From positions 1,736,001 to 1,800,000 of the forward strand of contig NZ_CP063845.1 of the NCBI RefSeq assembly GCF_021018745.1: a DNA stretch of 64,000 bases. Direction: 5' to 3'. The position numbers and the translations under genes were made by a program. Within the stretch, counting starts at the first letter, position 1. Each line of letters opens with the position of its first letter. This DNA comes from Gloeobacter morelensis MG652769 (GTDB lineage: Bacteria; Cyanobacteriota; Cyanobacteriia; Gloeobacterales; Gloeobacteraceae). The notes beneath the pieces are model-generated. The model was not told where the DNA came from, searched no databases, and saw only the letters and a list, made by a program, of their open reading frames with translations. Shown here piece after piece: positions 2,728 through 53,114 of this stretch.

Positions 2728-4518
2728 ATGACCACGGACGGGAGCTTGGGAGGCGCGCAGGCGATGCAGCAGACGATCCAAAAACGGCTGACGGTTCAGT
2801 GCGGGGAGATTGCTCCCGAGACGGTGGCGATGCGCTGTCTCGACTGGGATCGCGATCGCTTCGACATCGAATTTGGGCTGCAAAACGGCACGACCTACAA
2901 CTCGTATCTGATCGAGGGCGCGCAGGTAGCGCTGGTGGATACCAGCCACGAAAAGTTTCGCTCTCTTTATTTGGATCTGCTCACAGGCCACATCGATCCG
3001 AAGCGGATCGACTATCTGGTGATCAGCCACACCGAACCTGACCACAGCGGTCTGGTGGCGGATGTGCTGGCGCTCGCGCCCCAGGCGACGGTGGTCGCTT
3101 CGCGCATGGCGCTGCAGTTTCTGGCGAACATGGTGCACCGCCGCTTTCCGCAGCGGGCGGTCAAAAGCGGCGACACCCTCGATCTGGGGGGCGGGCACGT
3201 GCTCGAATTCGTCTCCGCCCCGAATTTGCATTGGCCCGATACGATGTTCACGTTCGACCGGGGCACGGGGGTACTTTATACCTGCGACGCTTTTGGGATG
3301 CATTACTGCAACGATCGGATGTTTGACGACGATCTGGCTGCTATCGAGCCCGATTACCGCTTTTATTACGAGTGCTTGATGGCCCCCAACGCCCGCTCGG
3401 TGCTCACCGCCCTCAAACGGATGGAGCCTCTGGGGGAGGTTGTTGCGATTGCCACCGGCCACGGGCCGCTGCTCAAGTGGCACCTGGGCGAACTGGTCGA
3501 CCGCTACCGCCGCTGGAGCCAGGAGCAGAGTGAGTCGACCACCAGCGTCGCGGTTTTCTATATCTCGGACTACGGCTACAGCGACCGGCTCGCCCAGGCA
3601 ATCGCCCAGGGGATCACCAAGTCCCATGTCGCCGCCGAACTGGTGGACCTGCGCGCCACGCCCCTTGCTGAGCTCCAGGAAATCGTCCGTCAGAGCGCCG
3701 GGGTGGTCATCGGCACTCCCCCCACGGCGGGGTCGGCCGCCCAGGCGACCCAGGCGGCTTTGGGCGTGATTCTGGCCAACGTCAAAGAAAAGCAGGCTTT
3801 TGGTATCTACGAGGCCTGTGGCGGCTTCGACGAGCCCGCCTTTCCGCTGTCGAGCCGATTTACCGACCTGGGTCTGGTGCGGGCCTTTCCGCCCATCCGC
3901 ATCCCGGGGCGCGAAGGTGTGCAAGGACAAGGCGAAGCGTCGGGCACGCCTACCCCGGCTCTCTACAAACTGTGCGAAGAGTCGGGGACCGACCTGGCCC
4001 AGTGGCTCAGCCGCGATCGCACCGTGCAGCAGATGAAGGCGGTGGCGGTCGGCCTCGACAAGGCGATGGGTCGTCTGTCGGGCGGGTTGTACGTACTCAC
4101 CGCCGCCAAAGGTGAACTCAAAGGCGCCATGCTCGCCTCCTGGGTCAACCAGGCGAGCTTTGCGCCCCTGGGCGTCACGATCGCCGTCGCCAAGGACCGG
4201 GCTATCGAGGCGCTGATGCAGGTGGGCGACATGTTTGCGCTCAATGTGCTCGAAGAAGGTAAGTACGCGCCGCTGATGCGCCACTTCCTGAAGCGCTTTG
4301 CCCCGGGTGAAGATCGCTTCGTGGGTGTGGAAACGCTCACCGGCACAGGCGGTACACCAATCCTGGCCGATGCCCTCGCCTACATGGAATGCCGGGTCGC
4401 CAGCCGCATGGAGTGCTCCGATCACTGGCTGGTCTACGGCGTGGTTGAGGATGGCCGCGTCTCCAACCTGGAGGGACTGACCGCCGTTCACCACCGCAAA
4501 GTCGGCAACCACTATTGA
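2728..4518 (+). CDS. flv3: Flavodiiron protein, canonical (Flv3-type)
   Basis: Cyanobacterial flavodiiron proteins reduce O2 to water with electrons from photosystem I, protecting it under fluctuating light. The 596 residues hold a beta-lactamase-like diiron domain, a flavodoxin domain (starting near SVAVFYISDYGYS, about residue 273) and a C-terminal flavin reductase domain (LSGGLYVLTAAKGELKGAML). The diiron ligand motif HTEPDH (H101, E103, D105, H106) is intact, with later LHWPDT, CDAFG and GHGP giving the remaining ligands, so this is the canonical partner. Flv1-type flv1 follows 65 bp downstream; the proteins are known to act as a heteromer. ATG 2764, with GGAGG upstream and giving MQQTIQKRL, is a plausible alternative start. 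Confidence 0.92.
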   Translation: MTTDGSLGGAQAMQQTIQKRLTVQCGEIAPETVAMRCLDWDRDRFDIEFGLQNGTTYNSYLIEGAQVALVDTSHEKFRSLYLDLLTGHIDPKRIDYLVISHTEPDHSGLVADVLALAPQATVVASRMALQFLANMVHRRFPQRAVKSGDTLDLGGGHVLEFVSAPNLHWPDTMFTFDRGTGVLYTCDAFGMHYCNDRMFDDDLAAIEPDYRFYYECLMAPNARSVLTALKRMEPLGEVVAIATGHGPLLKWHLGELVDRYRRWSQEQSESTTSVAVFYISDYGYSDRLAQAIAQGITKSHVAAELVDLRATPLAELQEIVRQSAGVVIGTPPTAGSAAQATQAALGVILANVKEKQAFGIYEACGGFDEPAFPLSSRFTDLGLVRAFPPIRIPGREGVQGQGEASGTPTPALYKLCEESGTDLAQWLSRDRTVQQMKAVAVGLDKAMGRLSGGLYVLTAAKGELKGAMLASWVNQASFAPLGVTIAVAKDRAIEALMQVGDMFALNVLEEGKYAPLMRHFLKRFAPGEDRFVGVETLTGTGGTPILADALAYMECRVASRMECSDHWLVYGVVEDGRVSNLEGLTAVHHRKVGNHY

Positions 4519-4568: not shown

Positions 4569-4583
4569 TTGAGGAGAAGCGCC

Positions 4584-6323
4584 ATGACCCCTGCCCAAAC
4601 GCCTGTGCGCGATATCCAGACGGTGTCGGTGGCCCCCGGCACCTGGGCGTTGCGCTCCCGCAGCTTCGTGCGGCTCAAATTTGAGGTCGAGTACGCCCGG
4701 CAGCGGGGCACCACCTCCAACGCCTTTGTGTTTCAGGGGCCAGATCGAACGCTGCTGCTCTCCCCGCCGGGCGAAACGTTCACTACCCTGTTTCTTGCGG
4801 AGTTGGAGCGGCTCATTCCCCTGGAGCAGATCCACGCGGTCGTCCTGGGCCATATCAATCCCAACCGCGCCAAAACCCTGATTGCCCTGCTGGCGCGCGC
4901 TCCCCACCTGGAGATCATCTGCTCCAACCCCGGGGCCGTCGCCCTCAAACCCTTACTCGAAAGTGAGGCGGTCGACCTAAAAACGCAAATCCGCATCGTT
5001 CGAGGCCAGGAAGTCCTGGAATTGGGCGGCGATCGCCGGTTGCAATGCATTCCCGCTCCCACCCCGCGCTGGCCCGACGGACTGTGCCTGTTTGATGAGA
5101 AGCACTCGGCACTTTACACCGACAAATTTTTTGCCGCCCACGTCGCGGAGGATGCCGTGTTTGACGAGAGCGGCACCGCCACAGGCGAGGACGCCCGCTA
5201 CTTTTATGATTGCCTGATGGCAAGCCAGGCCCGGCAGGTTGAAGCGGTGCTCGACCGGCTGGCCGAGTGGCCCGCCCGGGTAATCGCGCCGGTGCACGGA
5301 CCGCTGTTGCGGGCGGGCGGGCTGGATCTCATTTCCCATTACCGCCGCTGGAACCGCGCTCAGATTGAAAAGACGCTCACCGTCGCCTTGCTCTATGCCT
5401 CGGCCTACGGCTCCACCGCCACCCTCGCCCAGGCGCTTGCCCATGGGATCACCAAGGCCGGGGTAGGTGTAGAGACGATCAACTGCGAATTTGCCGCCCC
5501 GGAGGAGATCCGTGAGGTGGTCTCGCGCGCCGACGGCTTTGTGATCGGCTCGCCCACCCTGGGCGGTCACGCCCCCACCCAGATCCAGACGGCCCTGGGC
5601 ATTGTGCTTGCCACTGCTCCCAAATCGCAACTGACCGGGGTATTCGGCTCCTTCGGCTGGAGCGGCGAAGCGATCGACTTGCTGGAGAGCAAACTGCGCA
5701 ACGCTGGCTATTCTTTCGGATTCGAGACCATCCGCGTCAAGTTCAAACCAAACGCCGCCACCTTGCAGGAGTGCGAAGAGGCGGGCACCGATTTTGCCCA
5801 GGCGCTCAAGAAGACGCGCAAAGCCCGTCAGGGCCGCGCTCCCGCCGCCGCCACTCCCGTCGAGCAAGCCGCAGGCCGCATCGTCGGTTCGCTGTGCGTC
5901 GTCACAGCCCGGCGCGAAGATGTGAGCAGTGCGATGCTCGCCTCCTGGGTCTCCCAGGCCACCTTCAATCCGCCGGGGCTCACCGTGGCCGTCGCTAAAG
6001 AGCGGGCCATCGAGTCACTGCTGTACCCGGGTGACGCCTTCGTGCTCAATATTCTTGAAGAGGGGCAGCACCTGCCTTTGATGAAGCACTTTCTCAAACC
6101 CTTCGCTCCAGGACAGGACCGCTTTGCGGGGGTTGCCACGCGCGCGGCGGCCAACGGCTCGCCCATCCTCTCAGAAGCGCTCGCCTACCTCGAATGCCGG
6201 GTGGAGGGGCGCATGGACTGCGGCGATCACTGGCTGGTCTACTGCGTGGCCGAAGGGGGAGATGTGCTCAACCCGAACGGCAAGACGGCTGTGCACTTTC
6301 GCTCGACCGGTACGCACTACTGA
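4584..6323 (+). CDS. flv1: Flavodiiron protein, non-canonical (Flv1-type)
   Basis: It has the same three-domain plan as flv3: beta-lactamase-like domain, flavodoxin (TVALLYASAYGSTATLAQAL) and C-terminal flavin reductase (GRIVGSLCVVTARREDVSSAML). The diiron motif is degenerate: where flv3 has HTEPDH this protein reads GHINPNR, LHWPDT becomes PRWPDG and CDAFG becomes TDKFF. This is the pattern known for Flv1-type partners, which work only with a canonical subunit. I chose ATG 4584 because of the GAGGAG upstream; a longer frame from TTG 4569 has no support. The 3' end overlaps the convergent hydrolase by 7 bp. Confidence 0.9.
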   Translation: MTPAQTPVRDIQTVSVAPGTWALRSRSFVRLKFEVEYARQRGTTSNAFVFQGPDRTLLLSPPGETFTTLFLAELERLIPLEQIHAVVLGHINPNRAKTLIALLARAPHLEIICSNPGAVALKPLLESEAVDLKTQIRIVRGQEVLELGGDRRLQCIPAPTPRWPDGLCLFDEKHSALYTDKFFAAHVAEDAVFDESGTATGEDARYFYDCLMASQARQVEAVLDRLAEWPARVIAPVHGPLLRAGGLDLISHYRRWNRAQIEKTLTVALLYASAYGSTATLAQALAHGITKAGVGVETINCEFAAPEEIREVVSRADGFVIGSPTLGGHAPTQIQTALGIVLATAPKSQLTGVFGSFGWSGEAIDLLESKLRNAGYSFGFETIRVKFKPNAATLQECEEAGTDFAQALKKTRKARQGRAPAAATPVEQAAGRIVGSLCVVTARREDVSSAMLASWVSQATFNPPGLTVAVAKERAIESLLYPGDAFVLNILEEGQHLPLMKHFLKPFAPGQDRFAGVATRAAANGSPILSEALAYLECRVEGRMDCGDHWLVYCVAEGGDVLNPNGKTAVHFRSTGTHY

Positions 6324-15322: not shown

Positions 15323-16870
15323 TCAGACGCCGCCTCCCACTTTGTCGCGGTAGAGGGCAAGCAACCGGTCGAGGGTGTCCTGGACGGTGAAGGTGTCGGT
15401 GTTGACCTCGATGGCGTCGTCTGCCTTGCGCAAGGGGGCGTAGGCGCGGCTCATATCCTGGTTGTCGCGGCTGCGGATCTGCTCTTTGAGCACTGCGATA
15501 TCGGGTATTGGCAAACCTTTGGCCTTTAAGTCCTCTGCTCGGCGCAGCGCCCGCTCCTCGACGGAGGCGGTCAGATAAATTTTTAGCTCCGCCCGGGGAA
15601 AGACGTGGGTGCCGATGTCGCGGCCGTCAAGAATGACACCCCCCGCTTCGCCGATGCGGCGCTGCTGGGCAACCAGTTCGCTGCGCACCCCCGGATGGGA
15701 TGAAACGGCACTCACCTGCAGCGACACCGCCTCGTCGCGCACCGCCCGGGTCACTTCTTCGCCGTCTACCCACACCCGCGTGGGAAAGGCACTCTGGTAG
15801 CCGGGGGCAAGCCGGATGCGCACGGCGCGGGTCAGTGCGCTGAGCCGCTCACCGTCGAGGGGATCGATTCGCTCCTGCATGGCCCTCCAGGTGACCGCCC
15901 GGTACATCGCCCCCGTATCGATATAGAGAAACCCGAGCCGCTGGGCCAGACGGCGGGCGAGGGTGGATTTGCCCGCCCCGGCAGGTCCGTCGATGGCGAT
16001 GATCGGCCGGCGCTCGTGGTGCTGGCCGAGCACGACATTGTCGATCAGACGCGTGGAGCCGACCCGCACCGCCGCCGCCACCAGCACCGGTCCTGAAGCG
16101 TCCTGATGGGGGGTGAGCCGTTCGGGATCCACCGCCGCCACATATTCGACTTCCAGGCCCGATTCGCTTGCAAGCACGGTGCGCACGGCGCGCTCCAGCT
16201 CGCTCGCCCGCCGCTCGCCCCCTGCCCACAGATGGGCCGCTTTATCGAGGGCGCGGGGTAGGGCAAGGGCGGTGCTGCGCTGCTCGGGATTCAAGTAGAC
16301 ATTGCGGGAACTCAGGGCAAGGCCGTCCGGGTCGCGCACGGTCGGGCAGATGACGATGCGACCGCCGATATTGAGGTCGCGGCAGACGGACTGGATCACC
16401 GCCACCTGCTGGGCGTCTTTCTGGCCGAAGTAAGCGCGTACCGGCTGCACCAGGTTCATCACCTTGGCTACGACGGTAGCCACACCGCTGAAGTGGCCTG
16501 GACGCGCAAGTCCGCACATCGCTTCGGTGAGGGCCGGGTCCGGTACCACTTTGGTGCCAAAACCCGGCGGGTAGAGTTCGGACTGCGGCGGTACAAAGAC
16601 GAGATCCACCCCTTCGTGGCGGCAGAGTTCGAGATCGTCTGCCAGCGGGCGCGGGTAGCGGCTCAGGTCTTCGTTCGGGCTGAACTGGGCGGGATTGACA
16701 AAGATGCTGACCACCAGCACGGTGTTCTCGCGGCGAGCGCGGGCGAGCAGGCTGCGGTGGCCTTCATGCAGCGCCCCCATCGTCATCACCAGTCCCATCT
16801 CCACACCGGCGACCGGGGCGCGCGCCCGCCGGAACGCTTCGAGCCTGGCCACGGTTTCGACGACTTTCAC
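15323..16870 (-). CDS. panC-cmk: Bifunctional pantothenate synthetase / cytidylate kinase
   Basis: The 515-residue protein fuses two enzymes, a known cyanobacterial arrangement. Residues about 1-275 are PanC (pantoate plus beta-alanine to pantothenate): MGALHEGHRSLL, VVSIFVNPAQFSPNEDLSRYPR, RPGHFSGVATVVAKV, YFGQKDAQQ. Residues about 285-515 are Cmk (CMP/dCMP kinase): the P-loop IDGPAGAGKSTLARRLA, YIDTGAMYRAVTW and ILDGRDIGTHVFP. I chose GTG 16870 (VKVVETVARLEAF), with a G-rich stretch about 5 nt upstream; the frame further upstream overlaps thiG. It lies 34 bp after thiG in the same direction. Confidence 0.93.
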   Translation of the reverse strand: MKVVETVARLEAFRRARAPVAGVEMGLVMTMGALHEGHRSLLARARRENTVLVVSIFVNPAQFSPNEDLSRYPRPLADDLELCRHEGVDLVFVPPQSELYPPGFGTKVVPDPALTEAMCGLARPGHFSGVATVVAKVMNLVQPVRAYFGQKDAQQVAVIQSVCRDLNIGGRIVICPTVRDPDGLALSSRNVYLNPEQRSTALALPRALDKAAHLWAGGERRASELERAVRTVLASESGLEVEYVAAVDPERLTPHQDASGPVLVAAAVRVGSTRLIDNVVLGQHHERRPIIAIDGPAGAGKSTLARRLAQRLGFLYIDTGAMYRAVTWRAMQERIDPLDGERLSALTRAVRIRLAPGYQSAFPTRVWVDGEEVTRAVRDEAVSLQVSAVSSHPGVRSELVAQQRRIGEAGGVILDGRDIGTHVFPRAELKIYLTASVEERALRRAEDLKAKGLPIPDIAVLKEQIRSRDNQDMSRAYAPLRKADDAIEVNTDTFTVQDTLDRLLALYRDKVGGGV

Positions 16871-16904
16871 AGCGTTCCCCCCCGACCCGACGGCATCCGT
16901 AAGC

Positions 16905-17729
16905 TCAACTGCCGACAGCGCTCCCCACCAGTCCTGTAAGCGGCGAACTGGCGCTGGCGTAGGTTTTGACCGGGATGGCCCCCGCCTGGTGGGCCATCCG
17001 GCCCGCCTCGGTGGCCAGGCCCATCGCGCGGCCCATGGCAATTGGATCTTCAGCTTGGGCGATGGCGGTATTGATGAGCAGCGCCGCCGCTCCCATCTCC
17101 ATTGCCCGGCAAGCCTCCGAAGGAGTGCGGATGCCCGCGTCCACCACCACCGGCACCGGCGATTCGGCAATAATAAGCGCAATGGCCGCCGCGTTCTGGA
17201 GGCCCTGGCCGGAGCCGATGGGAGAGCCTAACGGCATGACCGTGGCGCAGCCCATCTCCCAGAGGCGCCGGGCCAGATGAAAATCGGCGTTGATGTAGGG
17301 CAGCACCGTAAAGCCCGCTTTGATGAGCGTCTCCGCCGCCTGCAGGGTGCCGAGGGGGTCGGGCAGCAGGTACTTGGTCTCGGGGATCACTTCGAGCTTC
17401 ACCCAGTTGTTGTCCTCCTGGCCCAGGATTTTTGCCATCTCGCGGCCGAAATGGGCGTAGCGCACCGCTTCTTCGGCGCTCTTCGCTCCGGCGGTGTTGG
17501 GCAGCATCCAGAGTTTTTGCCAGTCGAGTTCCTGGCCGAGGCCGCCGTGGCCCGGTACACCCTCCTGCACCCGCCGCACAGCGACGGTGACAATTTCGCT
17601 TCCAGAAGCGGCGACGGCGGCGCGCATCGCCTCGAAGGAGCGATATTTGCCGGTGCCGGTCATCAGCCGCGAGCGGAAGGAGCGATGGGCAATCTGCAGC
17701 GCAGCGGGCGGCGATTGGGTCTCGATCAC
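16905..17729 (-). CDS. thiG: Thiazole synthase
   Basis: ThiG makes the thiazole phosphate part of thiamine from deoxyxylulose 5-phosphate, ThiS-thiocarboxylate and dehydroglycine. The 274 residues show SRLMTGTGKY, ETVAVRR-like EIVTVAVRRV, LPNTAGA, KLEVIPETKYLLPD, GCATVMPLGSPIGSGQGL and VVVDAGIRTPSEACRAMEMG, as expected. The ATG overlaps the upstream HTH-protein stop by 4 bp, so expression is coupled to that gene. No TPP riboswitch core was noticed upstream of this group. Confidence 0.95.
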   Translation of the reverse strand: MIETQSPPAALQIAHRSFRSRLMTGTGKYRSFEAMRAAVAASGSEIVTVAVRRVQEGVPGHGGLGQELDWQKLWMLPNTAGAKSAEEAVRYAHFGREMAKILGQEDNNWVKLEVIPETKYLLPDPLGTLQAAETLIKAGFTVLPYINADFHLARRLWEMGCATVMPLGSPIGSGQGLQNAAAIALIIAESPVPVVVDAGIRTPSEACRAMEMGAAALLINTAIAQAEDPIAMGRAMGLATEAGRMAHQAGAIPVKTYASASSPLTGLVGSAVGS

Positions 17730-40543: not shown

Positions 40544-42436
40544 ATGGCAGAAGCAATGAACCGACGGGAAAGCGGGTACCGCAGGTGCGGTGCTCGCCGT
40601 TACCGCTTTGTAGGGTTTGCAGCGTTGCTTGCGGCGTTGCTTGCCGCCTGTGGGGGCACTGAGCGATCCGAGTTGCAGCCGCTGGCGGTCGAGCCGAACG
40701 GGACGAGCGTTTACGTGCAATCGATCGAGGCCAAGGGCGATCTCATTACCCTCGGCGTGCTTGCGATCAACGGCAGAAACGAGCCTGTCAAGCTCTCCGA
40801 AACGAACGACCCGGCGATGCTGCAGGACGAGTCGGGCAGCCAGTACTTCGCAGCCAAAGAGGACGTGGAAGTGCCGCCCCATACTGCCGCTGTGCTCAAA
40901 ATTCCTTTTGCCGGACCATTGGGCCGCGGCAGCGACAACCTGACGGTGCGCTTCAACCCCAGGTACGGCAACCGCTTCAACCGTCCGCAATTGACAGTCC
41001 AGGGTCTTCCCGGCAAGCAGGGTACGCTCATCGACTTTGCCACTCCTGTCAACCGCGAGGGTCCGCTGGAGCTTTCAGCGCACCACGCCAACGGCCTGAC
41101 CCTGGCGCTGGGAGGCATTCGCTTTACCGATCGCGACACGCGCGTCGCTTTTGAAGCGATTAACGGCAACGATCGCGAGATCTCCCTGTCCCGGCGCAGC
41201 GATTTACCCTATCTCGAAGACGGCCGCGCCAACCGCTACTATCTGGTGCCCCCGGCGAGCAATCCCCAGCTTCTAGTCTCAGGCAAGCAGAAGCTGGCGG
41301 GCGTGCTGCACTTTGCCGGCCGGGTACCCCAGGAGGTGGGACCGCTGACGCTGCACATCAACGAACGCTTCGGTAATCCCGACTGGAAAGAAGCGCGCGA
41401 TCCGCAGCTGCAGATAGCCGGCATCGCTGCGGCCCAGACCAGCGAAGTCGCTGTCCCCGCCGAGGGGAGCAAACCTGCCCCGGTAGCCTTTAGCGCACCG
41501 AAACTACCGGAAATCCAGCCGGTCTCGCTGCAGGTCAACCATCCAAACGGCACCGTGCTGCGGGTGAGCAGCGTCGCCTTTGCTCCCGACGCGGTAGTGC
41601 TCGACATGGCGGTGACCAATGGTCTGAAAGAACCGATTCAACTGAGTGGGGCTGGGGACATGCTGCTCACCGACGATCTGGGCAACCCTTACTTGCCTAC
41701 TCCACCTCCCGACAACCAGGCGCTCAACGTCGCCCCGGGCGCCACGCTCAAGGGCCGCTTCACCTTTCTGGGGCGAATTGCCCCGGGCGCTTCCAGGCTC
41801 ACCCTCACCACCAACAGCGTCTACGGCAACGACAACTGGAAGCTTGCCACCAAACCCAAGATGATCGTCGCAGGCATCCCCACGGGTCAGCCGCAGACTG
41901 TGGCGAGCGCCCCGCCGGCCAGTGCTCCGCAATCTGCCGCACCTCCCGTACCTGGGACCGACAATGCAGCGGCACCGTCTACTCCCGCCGAGAGCGTGCC
42001 GCAGGCGGCCGCTCCTGCTGCGCCGACACCCCCCCAGCCCCCGGCCGGCGGCGACGCGATCGAGGTCAATTTACAGACCAACCACCCGAACGGCTCGGTG
42101 ATGCGCCTCAGCAAAGTGACTTACAACGAAGACAACATTGCCCTGGAGATGACCGTCACCAACGGCCACGACGAACAGATTCAGCTCAACTACAGAGACG
42201 ACATGCTGGTGACAGACGATCTGGGCAACCGCTACAACCCGGCCCCACCCCCCAACAATCCGAAAGTGACCGTCAACCCCGGCGCTACGATCAAAGGCCA
42301 GTTCGTCTTCATCGGCCGCATCGCTCCGGGGGCGCGCAACATCACCCTCACCACCAACAGTGTTCTAGGCAGCGACTGGAAGCGCTCCGACCGGCCCAAG
42401 ATGATCCTCTCGGGCATTCCCGTGGGAGGTCTGTAA
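40544..42436 (+). CDS. Lipoprotein with four ~115-residue repeats
   Basis: The 630-residue protein starts with a lipoprotein signal ending LLAACGG. Four tandem copies of a ~115-residue beta-rich domain follow, each with a pattern like NHPNGTVLR..SV.F, a central VTNG..EPIQL, TDDLGN.Y, a Pro-rich turn, GRIAPGA..LTLTTNSVYG and the end P.M.[VL][AS]GIP. Repeats 3 and 4 are nearly identical in motifs; repeats 1 and 2 are diverged. A Pro/Ala-rich linker separates repeats 3 and 4. I chose ATG 40544, though ATG 40556 is possible. The OmpA-type gene starts 2 nt after the stop. The family is not recognised. Confidence 0.75.
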   Translation: MAEAMNRRESGYRRCGARRYRFVGFAALLAALLAACGGTERSELQPLAVEPNGTSVYVQSIEAKGDLITLGVLAINGRNEPVKLSETNDPAMLQDESGSQYFAAKEDVEVPPHTAAVLKIPFAGPLGRGSDNLTVRFNPRYGNRFNRPQLTVQGLPGKQGTLIDFATPVNREGPLELSAHHANGLTLALGGIRFTDRDTRVAFEAINGNDREISLSRRSDLPYLEDGRANRYYLVPPASNPQLLVSGKQKLAGVLHFAGRVPQEVGPLTLHINERFGNPDWKEARDPQLQIAGIAAAQTSEVAVPAEGSKPAPVAFSAPKLPEIQPVSLQVNHPNGTVLRVSSVAFAPDAVVLDMAVTNGLKEPIQLSGAGDMLLTDDLGNPYLPTPPPDNQALNVAPGATLKGRFTFLGRIAPGASRLTLTTNSVYGNDNWKLATKPKMIVAGIPTGQPQTVASAPPASAPQSAAPPVPGTDNAAAPSTPAESVPQAAAPAAPTPPQPPAGGDAIEVNLQTNHPNGSVMRLSKVTYNEDNIALEMTVTNGHDEQIQLNYRDDMLVTDDLGNRYNPAPPPNNPKVTVNPGATIKGQFVFIGRIAPGARNITLTTNSVLGSDWKRSDRPKMILSGIPVGGL

Positions 42437-42438
42437 AC

Positions 42439-43122
42439 ATGCACGCTGCCTTTTTGCTGCGAGCAAGCGCTGCGTCCCTGGTGCTGCTGTTGGTGGCCTG
42501 CGGCGACCGTTCCGCTCCAACCACCGCCGCGCGGCCAGGAGAACCGGCCGTCTCCACCCAGTCCATCGGCCGTGCGCTGGTTGCCCTCGACCCGAGCGAA
42601 GTGGCCCTCGTTCCTCCGACGGGCTCCGAGACCGCCGCGGACAGTGCCGGCGGTTCCGCCACCCGCAGCACCCAGATCGCAGCCTCCGAAACCCAGGTGG
42701 TCAACCAGATCCTCTCCGACTTCAACGCCCAGCGCACCGCCTCGGGGATTGTCGTCACCCTGCCGGAGGATATTCTCTTTGATTTTGACAAAGCCGATTT
42801 GCGGCCGAGCGCCCAGGCAGCACTCCAGAAGCTGGCCCAGGTGATCAATTTCTACAAAGATGCCCCGATCGCGATTTCGGGACACACCGACAGCAGGGGG
42901 GCCGACAGCTACAATCAGGGCCTGTCCGAGCGGCGGGCCGCAGCGGTGCGCTCGTACCTTGCGAACAATTTCAAGATCCCGACGGGTCGCCTCACAGCCC
43001 AGGGCCTGGGCGAGAGCAAGCCCGTTGCCCCCAACACCAAACCCGACGGCGCCGACGACCCGGCCGGCCGCCAGAAAAATCGCCGGGTCGAAATCTTGAT
43101 CAAAAACCGGGCGGGGCAGTGA
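42439..43122 (+). CDS. OmpA-family lipoprotein (peptidoglycan-binding)
   Basis: The 227-residue protein starts with a lipoprotein signal (LVLLLVACGDRS) and ends with an OmpA/MotB domain: VVTLPEDILFDFDKADLRPSA, ISGHTDSRGADSYNQGLSERRAAAVRSYL and GLGESKPVAPN, ending RRVEILIK. The domain binds diaminopimelate in peptidoglycan. The start lies 2 nt after the repeat-lipoprotein stop, so the two are translated together and probably work together at the outer membrane. A strong hairpin follows. Confidence 0.92.
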   Translation: MHAAFLLRASAASLVLLLVACGDRSAPTTAARPGEPAVSTQSIGRALVALDPSEVALVPPTGSETAADSAGGSATRSTQIAASETQVVNQILSDFNAQRTASGIVVTLPEDILFDFDKADLRPSAQAALQKLAQVINFYKDAPIAISGHTDSRGADSYNQGLSERRAAAVRSYLANNFKIPTGRLTAQGLGESKPVAPNTKPDGADDPAGRQKNRRVEILIKNRAGQ

Positions 43123-43152
43123 AAAAAGCCCGCAGCTGTTGCTGCGGGCTTT
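43122..43152. terminator. Bidirectional rho-independent terminator
   Basis: AAAGCCCGCAGC (43125-43136) and GCTGCGGGCTTT (43141-43152) form a perfect 12-bp stem with a TGTT loop. Six A precede it on the plus strand, so on the minus strand it is a textbook terminator for rpsB-tsf; it also ends the lipoprotein operon. Confidence 0.88.
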
Positions 43153-49635: not shown

Positions 49636-52494
49636 CTAAACATACTCGCTGTCGACGTAGTCCGGATCGATGGGCGGGTTGTACTGGGGCTGGAAGTGGT
49701 ACAGCGCGAAGACGACGTTGCGGCGCACCTCGACGAGCATCTGCAAAAACAGCTCATAGCCCTCGTTTTTGTACTCGATGAGCGGATCTTTCTGGCCGTA
49801 GCCCCGCAGGCCAATCATCTCGCGCAGGCTGTCCATCTGCTGCAGGTGCTCGCGCCAGAGGGTGTCGATCTGGTTGAGGATAAAGTAGCGCTCGGCTTCG
49901 CGCATCAGATCGGGCTGGATGGCGTTGATGTATTCTTCACGCGTCTCGTAGGCGAGCAGAGCCTGGCTTTTGAGATCTTCCTGCAGTTCGACCGCCGAGA
50001 ATTCACCCAACTTGGCCGCATCGAGCTGGTTTTCGAGCAGCGGTATCAGCTGCTGCATGTCCTGGATGAGAGCGGGCAGATCCCACTCTTCGGGGGGACG
50101 TTCGGCATTGATGTGGGCGCGGACAATCTCATCGACGGTCTGGTCGATGTATTCGCGCACGACGGCGCTCAGATCCTGGCCTTCGAGCGCCCGGCGACGC
50201 TCGGCGTAGATTGCCTTGCGCTGGTTGTTCATGACCTCGTCGTACTCGAAGACCTGCTTGCGCTGGTCGTAGTAGAAGGTCTCCACCTTGCGCTGGGCGT
50301 TCTCCAGGCTTTTGGTGAGCAGGCCCGATTCGATGGGCATGTCTTCTTCGACTTTAAATGCTTCCATCAGGCCCGCCACCCGCTCGCCGCCGAAGATGCG
50401 CAGGAGGTTGTCGCCCAGCGAGAGGAAAAAGCGCGTCGAGCCGGGGTCACCCTGGCGGCCGGAACGGCCGCGCAACTGGTTATCCACCCGGCGCGATTCG
50501 TGGCGCTCGGTGCCGATGACGTGCAGACCGCCTAGTTTGACGACTTCGTCGTGCTCGCGGTCGGTGACGACCTGATATTCTTTGTAGATGGCGCGGTAGA
50601 CCTCGCGCAGCCGCTGGATGACCGGGTCGTCGGTAGGGCCTTTCTCCGAGGCAATGGCGATCAACTCTTCCACCTGCAAAGCTGGTTGCGAATCGGCCCC
50701 CAGCATCTCGACGGCATAATCGACGGCCGCTTTGAGTTGTTGTTTGGTGGGCGCGCTCAACTCACAGGGGAAAATCTCCGCCTTCGGCAGGGATTTTTTC
50801 TTGCTGGTCGCCGCAAAACCGGCGCCGCGGCTGTTGCCGTTGTTGAGCAAACGCATCATCGGCGAGAAGGCATCCTCATCGTCGATCACAAGGGCCGGAA
50901 AGAGCACCTCCTTGAGCTTGAGGCGCGCCATGTATTCGGGATTGCCCCCGAGCAAAATGTCGGTACCGCGACCGGCCATGTTGGTGGCGATTGTCACCCC
51001 GCCTTTGCGACCGGCCTGGGCGACGATTTCTGATTCGCGCTCGACGTTCTCGGGCTTGGCATTGAGCAGGTTATGGGCGACGCCCTTTTCTTTGAGCAGA
51101 GCTGAGAGCACTTCCGATTTTTCGACCGAGGTAGTGCCCACCAGCACCGGGCGCCCGATCTTGTTCATCTCGGCAATCTCAGCAGCCACCGACTGCCACT
51201 TGCCGTTTTCGGTCTTGTAGACCTGGTCGGCCATATCCGTGCGGACCACTTTGCGGTTGGTGGGGATGGCGGTGACTTCAAGGCCATAGATCTTGCCGAA
51301 TTCGGCCTCTTCGGTAACGGCGGTGCCGGTCATGCCCGCCAGTTTCGGGTAGAGCAAGAAAAAGTTCTGGTAGGTGATCGAGGCCATCGTCTGGGTCTCG
51401 TTCTGGATGGTCACCATTTCTTTGGCCTCTACGGCCTGGTGCAGCCCCTCCGACCAGCGCCTGCCCGGCATGACACGGCCGGTAAATTCGTCGACGATCA
51501 CCACCTCGTCGTTGCGGACAATATACTGCACGTCCTTGTTAAACAGCTCCTTGGCCTTGACGGCGTTGAAGACAAAGTGCGCCCACGGATCGCGGGGGCT
51601 GAACAGGTCTTCGGTGCCCAGCATCTGCTCGGCGGCGATGAAGCCTTCGTCGGTGAGGGTGACGTTGCGCTGCTTTTCGTCCACTTCGTAGTGGGTGGTG
51701 CGCTCCAGAGCCATCGCCACCTCGTTGGCGCGCATGTACTTTTCTGCGGGCTTGGCCACCATCCCCGAGATGATGAGCGGCGTGCGCGCTTCGTCAACCA
51801 GGATTGAATCGACTTCGTCGATGATGCAGTAGTTAAAGGAGCGCTGCACCAACTCACCGCGGTTGGTGGCCATGTTGTCGCGCAGGTAGTCGAAGCCCAG
51901 TTCGGAGTTGGTGCCGTAGGTGATGTCGGCGGCGTAGTTCTGGGCGCGCTCGCTCGGGGTCATGCTCTGCTGGATGAGCCCGACGCTGAGCCCCAAAAAG
52001 CGGTGCACCTGCCCCATCCACTCCGAGTCGCGGCGGGCAAGGTAGTCATTCACTGTGACGACGTGCACACCCCGGCCGGTGAGCGCGTTGAGGTAGGCGG
52101 GCAGGGTGGACACCAGCGTCTTGCCTTCGCCGGTCTTCATCTCGGCAATCTGACCTTCGTGGAGCACCAGGCCCCCAATCAACTGCACGTCGTAGTGGCG
52201 CAGGCCAATCACCCGCTTGGCCGCCTCGCGCACGACAGCGAACGCTTCGCTGATCACCCCGTCGAGGGCCGCATCGATCCGGCGGCGGCGCTCGCGGATC
52301 TCAAGCGCGTCGAGGTCCACACCCTGAAGCTGGTCGGCAACGCGCTTTTGAAACCCGGCGGTCTTGGCGCGCAGTTGGTCGTCGCTCAAGGCAGCCATCT
52401 CGGCTTCGAGGGCATTCATCTCCGCCACCCTCGGCTGATACTTTTTGACCTTGCGCTCCTGCGGGTCGCCGAAGAGTTTGTTCCACCAAGCCAT
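49636..52494 (-). CDS. secA: Preprotein translocase ATPase SecA
   Basis: SecA drives proteins through SecYEG with ATP. The 952-residue protein has Walker A ([11 protein letters not shown]), Walker B ([14 protein letters not shown]), [12 protein letters not shown], the NBD2 motifs ([36 protein letters not shown]) and the helical wing/scaffold. The C-terminus ends [11 protein letters not shown] without the zinc/SecB-binding Cys motif, as usual for cyanobacteria. I chose ATG 52494 ([11 protein letters not shown]); the frame stays open upstream into mobile-element debris by chance. Confidence 0.97.
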
Positions 52495-52826
52495 ACTGTC
52501 TACCAGATTCCGGATATCACCGATCTTACCCCAACGGCACCGCCTGCCCTGGGTGACGATGACGCCCCAAGTGGCCGAGCAAGCTCTGCTCGATCCCACG
52601 GCGAAAACCTCCAGGCGCTGCCGAACCACACTGACCCAGCGGCGGTGCGCGAAGCGAGTCGCTACAAAAGCGTTTTCAGACTTTGTCGCCTGAACACTTC
52701 CGCCCCCGGACCGTTTGGACCCGGCACCAGCTTCGGATTGTGGAGCCTCAAGACCACCACCGTCGCCTCGGGCACCGTCACCCTTTCTTTGCCCACCGGC
52801 GAATCGACGGCACAGGAAACGGCCGC
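52495..52826. other. Spacer between secA and the IS3 remnant
   Basis: About 330 bp that must hold the secA promoter. The IS3-remnant reading frame continues into it on the minus strand after the homology ends (through [19 protein letters not shown], stop at 52662-52664), which suggests fusion with debris of another element. No gene is recognised. Confidence 0.4.
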
Positions 52827-53114
52827 ATTGAAAACCTCCGGCACCCCGAAAGCAAATGCCGCTTCCAACGCCTCCATGCACAAGTGAGTATCCATCGTGT
52901 TCGACAACCGCCAAGACAGGACGAACCGGCTGTGCCAGTCCATCACTGCCACCAGGTACAGAAAGCCCTTTGGCATCGGAATGTACGTGATATCGGCGCG
53001 CCACACCTGATGGGAACGCACCCCAGAGACACCGCGCAGCAGATAGGGCTACACCTGGCTGCCTTGCGCTTTTCGGCTGGTGTTCGGCTTTTGGTAAATG
53101 GCTTCTATGCTCAT
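52827..53114 (-). pseudogene. IS3-family transposase (OrfB) remnant
   Basis: Read on the minus strand from ATG 53114, the frame gives [18 protein letters not shown], then an in-frame TAG at 53049-53051 where a Tyr is expected (before PYLLRGV), and then [20 protein letters not shown] and [20 protein letters not shown], the start of the IS3-type integrase core with the first catalytic Asp. Homology stops at FGVPEVFN (52827), before the second Asp and the Glu. The gene is truncated and stopped, so it is dead. The ISKra4-like element abuts its start. Confidence 0.85.

Follow-up and report, generated by a model that had tools for sequence, protein, structure and literature searches.

A pair of adjacent lipoprotein genes in Gloeobacter morelensis MG652769, one encoding four tandem repeats and the other an OmpA domain, recurs in other cyanobacteria, and its OmpA half is a close relative of the C-terminal extension of the photosystem I subunit PsaB. 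The pair was found in a 64,000-nucleotide stretch of the genome (referred to as the window). We hypothesized that the two genes encode co-operating, membrane-anchored periplasmic proteins that tether a membrane to peptidoglycan, and that the OmpA half was copied onto PsaB; we give this reading about an even chance. Cyanobacteria are described as using SLH porins for outer-membrane tethering, and the pair would represent a two-gene envelope module that recurs among them and can be tested. A possible origin of the unusual PsaB tail of Gloeobacter also emerges: photosystem I may have captured a lipoprotein domain.

The four-repeat lipoprotein gene, P0001 (630 amino acids), is located at 40544..42436 on the plus strand and its orthologues in two other Gloeobacter genomes share 92% (G001) and 81% (G002) identity. 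The OmpA-domain lipoprotein gene, P0002 (227 amino acids, 42439..43122), follows on the same strand after 2 nt, as the sequence-only reading had noted. Both open reading frames match the lipobox pattern, with the cysteine at codon 36 in P0001 (Cys36, LAAC-GGT, 40649..40651) and at codon 21 in P0002 (Cys21, LVAC-GDR, 42499..42501). Downstream of P0002, ahead of the convergent tsf gene, is a 12-bp hairpin (43125..43152, plus strand). Its folding energy of -24.4 kcal/mol (z -5.43) was matched by none of 200 shuffles. Since a consensus terminator scan left this hairpin out, the shared terminator that had been claimed is retained as a strong hairpin 3′ of P0002 that probably, but not by consensus, acts as one. 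The gene order in the window is MarR, pirin, a flavodoxin-type gene, the pair and tsf.

Other features of the window include two adjoining flavodiiron-type genes with ODP and flavin reductase domains (2728-4515 and 4569-6320, plus strand), a pantoate ligase-cytidylate kinase fusion (15323-17182, minus strand), and a SecA open reading frame (49636-53004, minus strand) with about 57 residues more than 2ipc between amino acids 699 and 777. The start of the latter is probably over-extended because Pfam homology begins only at amino acid 175.

The repeats of P0001 are R1 (amino acids 43-159, 40670..41020), R2 (173-298, 41060..41437), R3 (325-449, 41516..41890) and R4 (506-630, 42059..42433), all read on the plus strand. 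An Ala/Pro-rich linker of 56 amino acids, recognized by eye, separates R3 from R4 (41891..42058). That there are four tandem repeats held in all six pairwise comparisons, which beat their shuffles; the repeat lengths are 117-126 amino acids. With 200 shuffles and slightly wider provisional boundaries, the z values ranged from 8.9 for R1 and R2, the weakest pair, to 55.9 for R3 and R4, the strongest, which share 59% identity. The AlphaFold2 model of R4, built on an alignment of the four P0001 repeats and nine single-domain relatives, includes only strands (pLDDT 93.2, pTM 0.86), in agreement with the beta-rich character previously read from the sequence. The model of R1-R2 was weaker (pLDDT 80.6, pTM 0.60) and showed two strand-rich domains joined by an uncertain linker. 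It contributes little because the transglutaminases and RbmA that headed its Foldseek list all had TM-scores below 0.33.

The family is also unrecognized by Pfam, as had been supposed: the best score, to DUF5643, was 29.9 bits against a cut-off of 34, and DUF4352 was likewise under its gathering score (18.2 versus 25.9 bits). Searches of PDB sequences with P0001 and with A2 returned weak matches only. The best Foldseek matches of R4 were YjhA (3cfu, E 7.8e-4), 4eae, 5bxg, YcdA (4r4g), 4les and MPT63 (1lmi), sandwiches of mostly unknown function. The VIA-align Z values were 10.4 for 3fbq, 9.2 for 4r4g and 8.1 for 1lmi, with PCuAC domains (9.1) and arrestin (8.3) close behind. The P0001 repeat is thus predicted, from the model, to be a beta-sandwich akin to the DUF4352/MPT63 folds, and copper chaperones and arrestins score alike. 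A match of the repeat to a known domain with a different role would have refuted the sequence-only reading; the predicted sandwich instead resembles folds to which no role is assigned.

PCuAC copper chaperones hold copper through conserved His and Met residues. A copper-chaperone role for the repeat was considered and rejected, as none of the His, Met or Cys residues is invariant across the 16 domains aligned. Weak matches to P0001 in G012 (L005) and G001 (L006, with five stops) are probably matches to the linker.

One of the structural matches of R4 leads to a different proposal. YxkC is part of an integrative model with DacA (9a4z; Foldseek E 0.01, Z 7.0), and P0001 could by analogy be an adaptor, held at the wall by its OmpA partner, that recruits a peptidoglycan carboxypeptidase or hydrolase. 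The YxkC match is weak and unrelated sandwiches reach a similar Z, no murein hydrolase or carboxypeptidase was recognized by eye in the 1.5-kb flanks, and no paper dealing with both YxkC and DacA was found in the literature searched; we regard this role as improbable. According to the tether model, the four linker-joined beta-sandwich domains would rather be a stalk or adaptor for P0002 itself.

The OmpA-type nature of the second protein, also claimed from the sequence, was substantiated by Pfam (PF00691; 86.2 bits against a cut-off of 27.2, E 2.1e-24), which places the domain at amino acids 113-204 (42775..43050, plus strand). The T-D-x14-R motif is present in 31 of the 33 OmpA domains examined, including those of P0002, the pair members and the PsaB tails. 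We take the Asp and Arg of this motif, 15 residues apart, to be the peptidoglycan-contacting residues. P0002 is therefore probably a peptidoglycan-binding lipoprotein, and it would grip the wall non-covalently through its C-terminal domain. For E. coli, a passage of PMC10628300 describes non-covalent association of OmpA and Pal with peptidoglycan.

A profile of the repeat found matches in 13 of 388 cyanobacterial genomes. The three Gloeobacter genomes (G000, that of the window, G001 and G002) have four copies each, and the other ten have single-domain genes, at eleven loci. An OmpA gene is located directly downstream at five of them (G165, G185, G210, G213 C89 and G287). At another, in G188 (L061, 1276-2295, minus strand), the first part of the repeat and the C-terminal half of the OmpA domain share one open reading frame, perhaps owing to a deletion across a former pair or to an assembly error. 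At the remaining five (G049, G072, G192, G213 C442 and G364) no OmpA neighbour was in view when 1.5-kb flanks were judged by eye. A scan of named genomes produced nine repeat loci, three of them genes already counted and six new. The pair is present in Phormidium sp. LEGE 05292, Microcoleus vaginatus and an Oscillatoriales MAG, and no OmpA partner was detected by profile within the DNA examined (up to 4 kb; L074-L076) in Tolypothrix and two Scytonema. Extending the family searches to 42 genomes around G210 and 36 around G165 brought no new genome.

The 17 loci outside Gloeobacter thus comprise eight intact pairs, one fused remnant (L061) and eight without an adjoining OmpA gene. In the eight pairs the repeat gene is always upstream and on the same strand; the spacing goes from a 4-nt overlap to a 111-nt gap and is below 15 nt in seven. 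The co-occurrence that the sequence-only reading had named as a check was found: at roughly half of the loci (8 of 17) the OmpA gene is directly downstream and the gene order is kept. These results support P0001 and P0002 being a two-gene unit. The loci without an adjoining OmpA gene (8/17) indicate that the repeat domain can occur alone. Together with the solo OmpA protein of G003, a relative that has no repeat protein, they could also mean that the two genes adjoin for historical reasons alone and that their products act independently. Such an explanation has to accommodate an order and strand kept at eight loci, with gaps under 15 nt in seven; the chance of this adjacency is about 4e-22, assuming three such genes per 5000 in each genome and ignoring kinship. 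We consider it highly improbable. Repeat and OmpA subfamily co-occur in nine genomes (13 and 21 of 388, respectively; Fisher's test, p 3.7e-10), a value not counted as evidence because pair members and PsaB tails had served to build the OmpA profile and kinship is ignored.

The membrane anchors of the pairs outside Gloeobacter vary. The repeat partners of G165, G185, G210 and G213 start with a hydrophobic segment and lack a lipobox. Those of L079-L081 have a Cys-bearing signal recognized by eye, which the lipobox pattern did not accept, and the N-terminus of the G287 protein lies beyond the contig end. Six of the eight OmpA partners look lipoprotein-like, a judgement made in one case by eye, and two do not; the cysteine of the G165 OmpA protein was likewise recognized by eye and not accepted by the pattern.

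Several loci deserve mention separately. A DapB-like gene (diaminopimelate synthesis) is found upstream of the pair in G185, and a second single-domain gene of G213 (L066, 1501-1875) includes an in-frame TAG and has no OmpA neighbour in view. In five marine picocyanobacteria (G071, G240, G319, G348 and G381; L103-L107) another lipoprotein gene directly precedes an OmpA gene. These lipoproteins had no Pfam match over the cut-off and a profile-profile probability of 1.6% with the repeat, and one of the five matched the repeat profile with an E value of 6.9e-5 in a set of only a few open reading frames. The five genomes, as well as G371 (L098), whose upstream gene could be read only in part, were left out of the pair count. 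The protein of L108 (G232) is, by eye, of the OprF type.

The only other OmpA domain found in G000 is the C-terminal extension of PsaB, and the same is true of G001 and G002. At E ≤ 0.001, Pfam recognized two OmpA domains in each of these genomes (lipoprotein and PsaB), one each in G003, G005 and G006, and none in G004, G007, G008 and G009. The PsaB with the C-terminal OmpA domain has 875 amino acids and is encoded outside the window (L026 3310-5937, minus strand; G000:C1:2890312-2892936). The top PDB match of P0002 is PsaB of the Gloeobacter photosystem I (7f4v, E 3.9e-41), and P0002 and the PsaB tail share 55% identity over 131 amino acids, including a segment that precedes the OmpA core. 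Among the three genomes, identity is 96-99% for the tail and 99.6-99.7% for the PsaB core. The tail itself is not new: Inoue et al. reportedly described it in 2004, together with its resemblance to a peptidoglycan-binding motif. What the present analysis adds is its link to the lipoprotein pair. In the literature searched, nothing tied the PsaB tail to the P0002 lipoprotein or described the pair, which does not imply that either is unpublished, and no paper joined Gloeobacter PsaB with peptidoglycan in substance, an absence that does not extend to everything in print.

Three trees of OmpA domains were compared. In the 33-row tree (34 rows were prepared and G017 gave no domain), the PsaB tails join the Gloeobacter lipoproteins with support of 94/95, and the wider clade with the pair proteins is not resolved. 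The 26-row tree, from which seven distant rows were dropped, five flagged as long, gave 97/92 for the sisterhood and placed it within a clade of 14 rows (98/95) made up of the PsaB tails and the OmpA proteins of pairs. The 39-row tree consists of the earlier rows, five loci omitted by the motif filter and G017. In it the PsaB tails and the three Gloeobacter lipoproteins form sister groups (99/96) within a 13-row clade (86/87) that leaves G287 outside; a clade including G287 was not rejected (p-AU 0.21). The row named G015_L015 in the 33- and 26-row trees and in the motif count comes from G028. The sequences thus support the sisterhood of PsaB tails and Gloeobacter lipoproteins well, and a wider clade with the pair OmpA proteins moderately. 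In raw identity, the P0002 domain shares 57-59% with some of the pair OmpA proteins from other cyanobacteria, more than the 55% that it shares with the PsaB tail.

PsaB is the likely recipient of the domain, because the lipoprotein group extends more widely and PsaB occurs without the domain elsewhere in the genomes seen. In G003 the protein terminates with no OmpA domain, in G007 and G008 it ends short, in G005 it is cut by the contig end, and in G006 and G009 it was assessed from the match and frame length only. A class search gave only the three Gloeobacter proteins as OmpA-subfamily matches in 876-codon frames. G004 belongs to a different genus of the family; its PsaB ends in about 45 Pro/Ala-rich residues and has no OmpA domain (L034 1104-3383, minus strand). 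This tail could be either a linker that came first or what was left when the domain was lost.

The pair is found in G000, G001 and G002, and G003 lacks both it and the PsaB OmpA tail. In G003 the genes immediately after tsf are pirin and MarR (identified by eye), and this locus therefore lacks both the flavodoxin-type gene and the pair. Pirin adjoins the pair in G002, and a different gene is found there in G001. As all three genomes with pair and tail belong to one genus, their co-occurrence may reflect one event. Fusion of a copied OmpA half to the periplasmic C-terminus of PsaB would have occurred in this Gloeobacter lineage, and photosystem I would thereby carry the same kind of putative wall-binding domain, which may hold it in place.

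The location in the outer membrane or at the surface that had been proposed from the sequence was not sustained. Both lipoproteins could be anchored in the outer membrane with the OmpA domain holding the wall, as in Pal; Pal and YiaD likewise combine a lipoprotein with an OmpA domain (although the scores are under their cut-offs), and P0001 and P0002 have Gly at position +2 of the lipobox Cys. In E. coli this residue would permit outer-membrane sorting. Nevertheless, a search for LolA alone, with E. coli among the positive controls, found none over the cut-off (best E 0.03), four repeat partners have hydrophobic anchors instead of a lipobox, and the sister domain sits on the periplasmic side of photosystem I. 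In addition, PMC10628300 confines Pal and Lol to Gracilicutes and names SLH-type OmpM as the tether of Terrabacteria, including cyanobacteria. The negative LolA search and this distribution make the outer-membrane site less favoured, and we judge such a tether rather unlikely. The plasma membrane would be the likelier membrane to be tethered by the pair.

Gloeobacter has no thylakoids; photosynthesis takes place in the plasma membrane, where PsaB is located. It could be that the wall itself positions photosystem I in this genus, PsaB having taken over the peptidoglycan-binding half of the tether, and that the lipoprotein pair works on the same wall sites; we find this extended version unlikely. 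In the plasma membrane of G. violaceus, photosynthetically active green patches are separate from orange fractions, as stated in a 2013 article (PMC3826073) citing Rexroth 2011. That the tether helps to hold such patches is speculation. If wall binding by the PsaB tail is real, it would give a physical way into the question of how photosynthetic complexes are kept in patches without thylakoids. The cryo-EM model of PsaB ends at residue 727, with loop 717-727 facing the periplasm, and neither "peptidoglycan" nor "extension" appears as a word in the main text (PMC9000952). Being outside this model, the OmpA domain may be mobile, unbound or lost.

The two proteins resemble several known systems in part. 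Sandwiches of the DUF4352/DUF5643/MPT63 type (YjhA 3cfu, YcdA 4r4g, MPT63 1lmi) are among the best fold matches and best sub-threshold Pfam matches of the repeat, but sequence identity is 11-16% and P0001 has four tandem copies coupled to an OmpA gene. Pal and YiaD are, like P0002, lipoproteins with a C-terminal OmpA domain. However, P0002 does not reach the NCBIfam equivalog cut-off of either Pal (TIGR02802, 67.6 versus 125.35 bits) or YiaD (NF053611, 137.7 versus 175 bits) and is partnered with a beta-sandwich protein. The OmpM-type SLH porin tethers of cyanobacteria presumably share with the pair the job of linking membrane and wall; Pfam found no SLH domain at E 1 in P0001 or P0002, whereas G000 has SLH domains elsewhere (11 matches). 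As a component of the known cyanobacterial tether, these weigh against the tether reading of the pair. The PsaB extension of 7f4v is of the same OmpA subfamily as P0002 and sister to it in the tree, but it is fused to a photosystem core subunit while the P0002 domain is found behind a lipoprotein signal.
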